This document shows, one piece after another, positions 4,964 to 59,876 of a DNA stretch of 64,000 bases. The stretch's first letter is position 1; each line of letters opens with the position of its first letter. The translations under genes and the position numbers were made by a program. Origin of the DNA: Desulfuribacillus stibiiarsenatis (lineage in GTDB: Bacteria; Bacillota; Bacilli; Desulfuribacillales; Desulfuribacillaceae); the NCBI RefSeq assembly GCF_001742305.1, contig NZ_MJAT01000038.1:1-64000 (forward strand), read 5' to 3'. The notes beneath the pieces are model-generated. The model was not told where the DNA came from. It worked only from the letters and a program-made list of their open reading frames with translations, and made no database searches.

Positions 4964-4980
4964 TTTATCAAACAAAACCT

Positions 4981-5150
4981 CGATAGGTGCCTATATCAAA
5001 TATATAGGAGAATAGGGAATAATGTGCAAATCATTAGCGGTCCCGCCACTGTAACTTGGAGATTCCTAGCATAACCACTGCGATTTAAGCGGGAAGGGTT
5101 AGGGTATCTATGAAAAGAAGCCAGGAGACCTGCCTATCAGGATACATAAT
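4981..5150 (+). promoter_or_regulatory. Cobalamin (B12) riboswitch
   Basis: It contains the B12 box AGCCAGGAGACCTGCC (5119-5134) and the conserved core GCGGTCCCGCCACTGTAA (5037-5054), both diagnostic of the adenosylcobalamin aptamer. It is followed by an intrinsic terminator and then cobT, so cobalamin binding is expected to shut off cobT transcription. Confidence 0.93.
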
Positions 5151-5163
5151 GATTAGACGATGG

Positions 5164-23264: not shown

Positions 23265-23600
23265 AAAAAAACCCTCATCTCTGTATACAGGATAATCCTG
23301 TAACAGGGACGAAGGTATTGGTCGCGGTACCACCCTGGTTCACTTAAGTTTTACAACTCAAGTCTCTTGATCCACAGATAATAATAGTATTCGCTTTTGG
23401 GCGGAATCCTATCATCCATCATGGATACTGTTCAACACGTATCGTGTGTCTAACGATCAATCCTAGTGGGATATCGTAATCGATATCGGTTCAGTTGATT
23501 GCTTTGAGGTGAGTTCACAAATAGCTTAGTGGCCTGTTCTCATCCTTCCAGGCTCTCTGTACACTAATACTCTATAAGTTACTTGTCCTCTTCATCGCTT
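23265..23600 (-). promoter_or_regulatory. T-box leader of the ilv-leu operon, specifier CUC (Leu)
   Basis: The T-box core GGGTGGTACCGCG (complement of 23323-23335) is followed by a terminator hairpin (23265-23315) whose 5' arm pairs with sequence after the T-box. The Stem I specifier loop reads GTGAACTCACCTC on the minus strand; CTC (complement of 23511-23513) is a leucine codon. The UGGU of the T-box would pair with an A discriminator base, as in tRNA-Leu. Low charged tRNA-Leu should raise operon expression. A one-base shift would give UCA (Ser), which does not fit the genes. Confidence 0.93.
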
Positions 23601-23663
23601 ATCAATGAAAATGTTTTGCAAATTTTCTGAAATCTATGATTATTCTTTGAATGTTTATAGAAA

Positions 23664-27916: not shown

Positions 27917-28036
27917 ATAAAGAAAACTTAGCATTCGCCAAGCCTTAGGCGAAGAGAATGCTTTAGTTGCACTTATTTCGCAGCTTGGCGATACTTATCT
28001 CTCACTTATAAAGTGAGAATTAGTAAAGCCGCTAAG
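27917..28036 (+). repeat. Dispersed structured repeat, type 1, copy A
   Basis: The first 65 nt are identical to copy B (28037-28101). They begin ATAAAGAAAACTTAG, then a hairpin, then CTTTAGTTGCACTTATTTCG. A second conserved block AGCTTGGCG follows, and an outer stem CTTATCT/AGATAA encloses a short hairpin (CTCACTT-ATA-AAGTGAG). It codes for nothing visible and lies against the proB ribosome site. Copy B has a much longer arm in place of the short hairpin. Confidence 0.8.
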
Positions 28037-28235
28037 ATAAAGAAAACTTAGCATTCGCCAAGCCTTAGGCGAAGAGAATGCTTTAGTTGCACTTATTTCG
28101 CCTGTACCCCTTGCGGGTGAAGCTTGGCGACACTTATCTCCCACTTTCACCTAAAGGTACGTAATGGTTCTAACTATTTTAAAAATAGAAGAACCATTCT
28201 GTAGAAGTGGGAGTATTAATAAAGCCGCTGAGATA
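28037..28235 (+). repeat. Dispersed structured repeat, type 1, copy B
   Basis: It sits in direct tandem with copy A. Relative to A it has a 19-nt insertion after the 65-nt identical block (small ACCC/GGGT hairpin), and its arm is expanded: nested pairings CTTATCTC/GAGATA, CCACTT/AAGTGG, AATGGTTC/GAACCATT and CTATTTT/AAAATAG. This expanded arm is nearly identical to that in the copy at 57.9 kb. The right end is CCGCTGAGATA. Confidence 0.8.
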
Positions 28236-28312
28236 GAAGGATTCTATATACTAGCAACGAAGTAGTGCGTTATAATGCTACAATTTAGCACGTTTTATTA
28301 ACATTTGTATTA

Positions 28313-39842: not shown

Positions 39843-39949
39843 GATAAACAAAACTTGACATACACCAAGTCCTTCTGACGAAGGTGAATGCCTTAGTTGC
39901 CGTTATACTATCTACATTTAAAAACTTATACTTTCTGATAGTATAAAAA
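39843..39949 (+). repeat. Dispersed structured repeat, hybrid of types 1 and 2
   Basis: The left half aligns with type 1 (GATAAACAAAACTT ... CCAAG ... GAATGCCTTAGTTGC, compared with GATAAAGAAAACTT ... CCAAG ... GAATGCTTTAGTTGC). The right half is the type 2 hairpin TACTATCTACAT ... CTTTCTGATAGTATA, shared with 46.7 kb. It fills the gap between mutS2 and pxpB. Confidence 0.7.
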
Positions 39950-56044: not shown

Positions 56045-56278
56045 AAAAACCTTCATCCCAAAAAAGGGACGAAGGTTCGCGTTACCACCCTAATTGTAAA
56101 CATAGAAAAACAAACACTCTTGTTTACCACTTCATTATCAATAACGGCATAGGGCCGACTATCCGTACTGTTTTCCGGATAGTAGTCTTCGGAGGGAACT
56201 TCGGTATTAGGTCTTAAAGCCACTCTCAGTCAATATGGCTCTTCCTGTTTAAAGCACACTAACACTTACTCGCTCCTG
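56045..56278 (-). promoter_or_regulatory. T-box leader of pheST, specifier UUC (Phe)
   Basis: T-box AGGGTGGTAACGCG on the minus strand, followed by the terminator CCTTCGTCCC-TTTTTT-GGGATGAAGG with TTTTT (about 56044-56075). The specifier region reads GAAGTTCCCTCC; TTC (complement of 56196-56198) is a Phe codon. Uncharged tRNA-Phe should permit read-through into pheST. Confidence 0.92.
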
Positions 56279-56332
56279 CATTACATTTTTATATGAAATT
56301 CATAAAGTTTGAACATTATTATACATGGCGAA

Positions 56333-57816: not shown

Positions 57817-57841
57817 TGAAATTCACTCCATTATGATTACT

Positions 57842-58019
57842 TATCTCAGCGGTGTTACTAATACTCCCACTTCTACAGAATGGTTCTTCTATTTTAAAAA
57901 TAGTTGGAACCATTACGTACCTGAGGTGAAAGTGGGAGATAAGTGCCGCCAAGCTTCGAAATAAGTGCAACTAAAGTTCAGATGGAATAAAAACTCCATC
58001 TGAACTAAGTTTTCTTTAT
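57842..58019 (-). repeat. Dispersed structured repeat, type 1, copy C (inverted)
   Basis: In minus orientation it starts ATAAAGAAAACTTAG, as copies A and B do, but the first hairpin is wholly different in sequence (AGTTCAGATGGA ... TCCATCTGAACT) yet still perfectly paired. Then CTTTAGTTGCACTTATTTCG, AGCTTGGCGGCACTTATCTC and the expanded arm are nearly identical to copy B, ending CCGCTGAGATAA. The stop codon TAA of the CBS-domain gene lies within its first bases. Confidence 0.8.
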
Positions 58020-59689: not shown

Positions 59690-59876
59690 GATGACAATTC
59701 AATAACACCTTATGTCGACAACATACTTGGCATTGAAAGCAACAAAAAATGCGGATGAATAAATCATCCGCATTAACTCTAACCATAGGTATATTACACT
59801 CAGTCGGTTAATCGTCGTACCCGTCAACGTTAGTCAACTAGGTGAGAAGCGGATGCTCCTTCTTGTCACTTTTGCT
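59690..59876 (-). promoter_or_regulatory. L20-type leader of infC-rpmI-rplT
   Basis: The transcript begins with GAGCATCCGCTTCTCACC (about 59838-59860), the recognised feature of Bacillus L20 leaders. A terminator AATGCGGATGA/TCATCCGCATT with T run lies at 59745-59776. CATCCGC near the start can pair with GCGGATG of the terminator, giving an alternative fold. L20 binding is expected to favour termination. Confidence 0.8.
59745..59776 (-). terminator. Attenuator terminator in the L20 leader
   Basis: Eleven-base-pair perfect stem AATGCGGATGA/TCATCCGCATT, 5-nt loop, followed by a T run on the minus strand. Confidence 0.85.

Follow-up and report, generated by a model that had tools for sequence, protein, structure and literature searches.

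Positions 57842-58019 of a 64,000-nucleotide stretch of the Desulfuribacillus stibiiarsenatis genome (the whole stretch analysed, hereafter the window) hold an inverted repeat copy, copy C, that shares its flanks with two other copies in the window (copies A and B) and encloses a different hairpin. The locus raises the question of what kind of sequence retains its flanks and its pairing while the paired bases themselves differ. An own-genome search returned 70 matching pieces with about 50 left modules, and copy C was one of approximately 50 copies of a tiny two-hairpin, putatively mobile DNA element that was both dispersed and arranged in tandem. The copies within the window were as follows.

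27917..28040, plus strand: copy A, type-2 left hairpin, without insert, short right arm
28037..28236, plus strand: copy B, type-2 left hairpin, 19-nt insert, long right arm
39844..39946, plus strand: copy D, newly found, a diverged type-2 element (covariance model 22.1 bits, E 0.024)
57841..58019, minus strand: copy C, complete element, type-1 left hairpin, without the 19-nt insert, long right arm

Structure of the element

The three copies recognised in the initial annotation were real, while the fourth, diverged one at 39844 on the plus strand had been missed. Copies A and B were in tandem (27917-28236) with a single ATAA common to both, having a GHMP kinase gene on one side and an amino acid kinase/PUA gene on the other. 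Copy C was located immediately 3' of the stop of a CBS-domain gene, whose stop codon TAA falls within the left tip of the element (58012..58019), and a TrkA-like gene followed 25 bp further on. At two other loci (L018, L020) copies were found at extreme ORF ends, where the element tip may provide the stop codon.

Family members were built to a common plan. The tip, ATAAAGAA or ATTAGAA, was followed by a left hairpin, a GCACTTATxxx linker and a right hairpin that varied in length, and the right end, complementary to the linker, came last. The corresponding parts of copy C are listed below.

58012..58019, minus strand: left tip ATAAAGAA, unpaired and almost invariant among relatives
57969..58011, minus strand: left hairpin with outer stem AACT/AGTT and inner stem GTTCAGATGGA/TCCATCTGAAC, from fold and covariation
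57957..57968, minus strand: linker GCACTTATTTCG, containing TTATTTC, the complement of the right end GAGATAA
57841..57956, minus strand: right arm, a large hairpin with the long-arm module and terminal GAGATAA, from the fold

Read as the reverse complement, copy C passed from ATAAAGAAAACTTAG through the hairpin arms TTCAGATGGA...TCCATCTGAA, paired at 10/10 positions, to CTTTAGTTGCACTTATTTCG, after which came a large second hairpin and GAGATA(A). This strand folded as DNA at -33.2 kcal/mol (z = -7.7, with 0/200 shuffles equal) and strongly as RNA (z = -8.3), and both the structure and the repetition of copy C are far beyond chance. Its nearest whole-length relative in the genome was at C32:210183 (96% identical).

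In many subfamilies the right end was complementary to the linker, which adjoins the right hairpin at its 5' foot; examples are TTATTTC/GAGATAA in copy C, TTATACTGTCG/CGACAGTGTAA in genome G058 and the perfect match TTATACTATC/GATAGTATAA in copy D. This pairing held in 80.4% of cells compared with 60.6% in shuffles for 26 hand-picked rows, a statistic that is suggestive only because the register was fixed by eye.

Several copies had additional features. Three direct-tandem copies at 122-bp spacing and an additional truncated copy, with a single ATAA shared at every junction, were located at G000:C36:19600-20700 (L095), and an extra nested hairpin, AAGAGTACCCAGTTTTCTGTAAGGTAAAACCTTACGAAAACGGATGTTACTC, was present within the left-hairpin loop at L015 (C4:88001) and L079 (C1:134517). 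On the 322-kb contig C21 of G000 all 11 clear copies were on the same strand, while other contigs were mixed. The possibility that left-only or right-only sites here represented a larger autonomous copy was rejected, as these proved to be short copies, either truncated or diverged, or else matches by chance.

Stem covariation and exchange of hairpins

The hairpin arm had been proposed to be selected as a stem or replaced as a module, and the evidence bore out both. When 31 diverse left modules were aligned, two-sided changes were found at 13 pairs of the 14-pair left stem, and at 14 of 18 pairs once the outer RACT/AGTY stem was included. Double-changed cells numbered 64 compared with 18.4 in shuffles, none of 500 of which scored as high, and the outermost pair of the left stem was without exception either G-C (17 rows) or A-U (14 rows). 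Pairing held in 91.5% of cells across these copies and fell to 38-43% when the partner was slid by one column, a control that is somewhat flattering since the 31 rows had been chosen to be diverse and had themselves served to define the structure. The shuffle control leaves relatedness in; pair counts, pair types and the slid control were concordant. Maintenance of the left arm as a stem is therefore supported. The two outcomes named in the initial annotation as refuting its reading, flank similarity of only a few bases and genome copies whose arm is unpaired, did not refute it, given the exact flanks and the 91.5% of cells that pair. The paired stem first described for copy C was real and longer than noted, as AACT/AGTT inside the supposed flanks also pairs; the invariant feet of the left module were AAAGAA-RACTT and TTAGTYGCACTTAT.

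Copies A, B and C contained exact 15-nt and 20-nt flanks, as had been claimed, and the perfect hairpin of copy C did differ from the GCATTC...GAATGC of A and B. Two forms were accordingly distinguished, type 1 with TTCAGATGGA (copy C) and type 2 with CATTCGCC (copies A and B). A census of 50 rows in the genome gave 43 of type 1, 4 of type 2 and 3 unclear (2 of them spurious). Copy C is thus the ordinary form rather than the swapped copy that it had been taken for, and A and B carry the minority hairpin. Hairpins resembling the type-2 form, such as AAAACTTGGCTCCGCCAAGC...GGCGGAGCCTTAGTTGCACTTAT, occur within the same flanks in many other Bacilli.

Copy D and the copy at C1:97893 combined a type-2 hairpin with a type-2-like right end, whereas copies A and B joined a type-2 hairpin to a type-1 right end. 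The right arm existed in short and long forms across the copies of the genome, and hairpin type by insert, hairpin type by arm and insert by arm each occurred in all four combinations, the type-2 cells containing few copies. These pairwise combinations indicate that the modules reassort, and recombination between two co-resident subfamilies via the shared flanks is the simplest reading. The long arms of B and C were indeed similar (91.1% identity), as first noted, but the recent spread or gene conversion proposed specifically between them was rejected since each had a closer relative elsewhere in the genome, B on contig C10 (95.5%) and C on C32 (93.8%).

A different inserted repeat, ATTAGTTGGGGACATTCCTGTCCCC...GTGTCCCC, was observed in the right-hairpin loop at L113, L115, L117, L149, L162 and L168 (Desulfotruncus, Soudan_19). 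It occurred on two right-hairpin types and parallels the long arm of the Desulfuribacillus stibiiarsenatis copies.

Distribution of the family

A covariance model of the left module matched 54/398 Bacilli genomes from 30/145 genera, some weak single matches among which may be chance, at least one inspected locus (L255) appearing spurious. The exact left-module pattern identified 94 stretches in named genomes, mostly in Desulfotruncus arcticus, followed by the Soudan_19 Clostridiales MAG, Peptococcaceae BRH_c8a, Desulfotomaculum sp. BL5, Pseudogracilibacillus auburnensis, Virgibacillus halotolerans and Cerasibacillus terrae. Desulfotruncus arcticus and other Clostridia had many copies, and the viral contigs, phages and plasmids searched contained zero element matches.

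No Rfam family scored above its gathering score over copies A-D. Four Rfam matches were located elsewhere in the window:

4968-5151, plus strand: cobalamin riboswitch
23302-23604, minus strand: T-box leader
56062-56290, minus strand: T-box leader
59737-59870, minus strand: L20 leader

Insertion sites and mobility

An insertion polymorphism was resolved upstream of a gene which we take to be murF from a reading of its translated start rather than from a database match. Within one large genus (g23) the element was present at this site in G256, G160 and G353 and the same site was empty in G282, G309, G238, G220 and G192, with flanks 94-96% identical; more distant congeners were also without an element upstream of murF. 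The empty site read GGATAA^CAAGAAAAAGG (G282, G220) compared with GGATCA, 84 bp and CAAGAAAAAGG at the filled site (G256), where the element reads TTAGAAAACTTGG...ATCAAC between GGATCA and CAAGAAAAAGG. To judge from these aligned sequences the insertion at this one well-resolved site is precise and without target duplication. Owing to letters shared at the joints, the boundary of the element can be placed only to within one or two bases. In 86 Clostridial copies AT preceded the left tip and NAA (N free) followed GAGAT, again with no sign of duplication. The element is very probably mobile and non-autonomous.

Searches for empty sites among the other sampled loci returned only self or element matches. 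An empty site in the genus of G058 was considered and rejected; beyond the end of the gene the G014 orthologue was without an element, but the sequences failed to align across the junction. In G318 (L375) the region upstream of murF had filled-like flank letters (ACTAC, GGATCA), no element and a few bases missing, and this site is possibly an excision scar.

The size and copy number of the element and its absence of a gene would suit a classical DD(E/D)-transposon MITE, an element that has terminal inverted repeats and duplicates its target. The empty site already disfavours that explanation, neither it nor the 86 boundaries showing a duplication, and the ends are not mutual inverted repeats (ATAAAGAAAACTTAG and TTATCTCAGCGG), which leaves a DD(E/D) MITE scarcely credible.

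The bcr1-like elements are a live comparison because of their TTTAT motif. The bcr1-bcr3 repeats are mobile, structured and TTTAT-linked (PMC6542083), and a repeat of this kind would be moved by a site-specific-recombination-like process at TTTAT motifs. The element studied here resembles them in being intergenic, structured and mobile, in size (about 100-400 bp for bcr1-bcr3) and in a TTTAT/ATAAA-like end motif; they differ in being described as restricted to the B. cereus group, the comparison being by description. Such ATAAA/TTTAT-like motifs bounded most Desulfuribacillus stibiiarsenatis copies, with ATAAA on the left and ATAA on the right, but not the Clostridial copies, whose right motif, GAGATNAA, included a free base and lacked any repeated pentamer. 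The murF insertion also had no duplicated TTTAT, and we consider a bcr1-like origin rather improbable. A search of the literature, including printed sequences, in which coverage of the bcr repeats was limited, yielded no prior record of the element.

Copies were located near gene starts, and both orientations relative to the adjacent gene were common. Convergent gene pairs were avoided, with 6/119 element-containing gaps being convergent compared with 69/360 control gaps by crude ORF calls (p = 0.0001). This comprised 5/88 and 60/311, respectively, for the Clostridial loci and 1/31 and 9/49 for Desulfuribacillus stibiiarsenatis. Together with the strong RNA fold, this placement would be expected of a structured regulatory RNA (a leader or attenuator) repeated by happenstance. 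The common occurrence of both orientations, the functionally mixed neighbours, the lack of an Rfam match and the presence/absence polymorphism at murF all argue against this, and a regulatory RNA is very unlikely. The avoidance of convergent pairs can be accounted for without a regulatory role and may come from target preference or from tolerance. With respect to GC skew, copy orientation was biased with opposite signs in two lineages, and gave no consistent signature of the insertion into the lagging-strand template looked for in an IS200/IS605 derivative.

Search for a mobilising enzyme

No Y1_Tnp gene was found in the Desulfuribacillus stibiiarsenatis genome (99.86% complete), nor was a RAYT. 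Among the Bacilli, Y1 genes were present in 40/54 carriers compared with 176/344 non-carriers (p = 0.002), leaving 14/54 carriers without one, and full-length RAYT-like matches in 14/54 compared with 35/344 (p = 0.003), both comparisons being from hand counts uncorrected for kinship and genome size. Y1 matches were found in 22/25 carriers inspected singly, and none of the best-scoring carrier Y1 loci (up to 30 per search) was flanked by the left module. A resident IS200/IS605 partner was therefore rejected. RAYT loci elsewhere were also unflanked by the element, with one borderline match approximately 0.8 kb away (L287, E 0.0011). The association of Y1 and RAYT genes with the element is weak and pinpointed no partner.

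Against this result has to be weighed the alternative that the element is a REP/REPIN-like repeat and was moved in trans by a RAYT, a domesticated Y1 transposase since lost from this genome. The REP/REPIN families share with the element short palindromes in many intergenic copies, singly and in tandem or as dimers, with species-wide spread, and in carriers G043 and G047 the only Y1 genes present resemble RAYTs. RAYT subclasses 2.1 and 2.3 are reported without known REP partners (PMC6006769), which speaks for such a pairing, as does the uncorrected enrichment of RAYT-like matches in carriers. The element differs from REP/REPIN sequences in having two unlike hairpins per unit and no adjacent RAYT; 40/54 carriers had no full-length RAYT-like match, and the hairpin 5' foot was without GTAG or GTGG. 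A lost RAYT is an unlikely explanation, although less so than the alternatives above.

Relation to known repeats and proposed mechanism

A close structural parallel was with the ends of IS200/IS605 elements (IS608, ISDra2) and of their non-autonomous derivatives (PATEs), each end of which likewise bears a subterminal hairpin. They also lack inverted repeats and target duplication, and have an AT-rich left flank and a right end complementary to the stretch 5' of the right-hairpin foot. In IS608 and ISDra2 the subterminal hairpins are bound by the enzyme, and the choice of left flank and right end depends on base interactions with tetranucleotides located 5' of the hairpin feet (PMC6006769). The element likewise had hairpins near both ends that were kept by structure rather than by sequence, and inserted precisely without target duplication as far as one orthologous site and 86 boundaries show. 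It differed in its long left hairpin (18 bp) and in a conserved NAA right flank, which IS200/IS605 targets do not require. The layout is thus that of an IS200/IS605 derivative or a REP-like repeat, but the element lacks a Y1 gene with matching ends, in the genome and the carriers examined, and the GTAG foot. Given these absences, membership of IS200/IS605 or REP/RAYT is not claimed. The CGTC-tagged palindromic repeats (PMC3733652) are likewise orphan palindromes without a dedicated transposase, but have not been reported from Firmicutes, and the element carries no CGTC tag.

Taken together, the element is probably a non-autonomous miniature transposable element of approximately 85-200 bp with two subterminal hairpins, belonging to a superfamily of Bacilli and Desulfotomaculum-type Clostridia. 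Since the layout matches the IS608/ISDra2 ends, the mechanism is most likely single-strand mobilisation in trans, and we give that step alone slightly less than an even chance. One strand would adopt the two-hairpin fold and a trans-acting enzyme would bind the folded ends, the right end being positioned by its pairing with the linker beside the right-hairpin foot. Insertion would then be precise, without target duplication, at AT-rich sites. As the stems are kept by structure, whole hairpins would be exchangeable, and recombination through the conserved flanks could swap them between co-resident subfamilies, producing the difference between copies A/B and copy C.

Small palindromic repeats are well described in Proteobacteria and poorly in Firmicutes, and here one structural template links many genera. 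With a resolved insertion site, reassorting hairpins and no known mover, the question of what moves the element is directly testable. The family also accounts for unannotated intergenic DNA near gene starts in the carrier genomes. A more tentative proposal, doubtful at present, is that of a Firmicute-wide two-hairpin superfamily with precise, duplication-free insertion whose mover would be either a non-Y1 host enzyme or a RAYT group without a known repeat partner. If the RAYT version were true, the element would be the missing substrate of that group.
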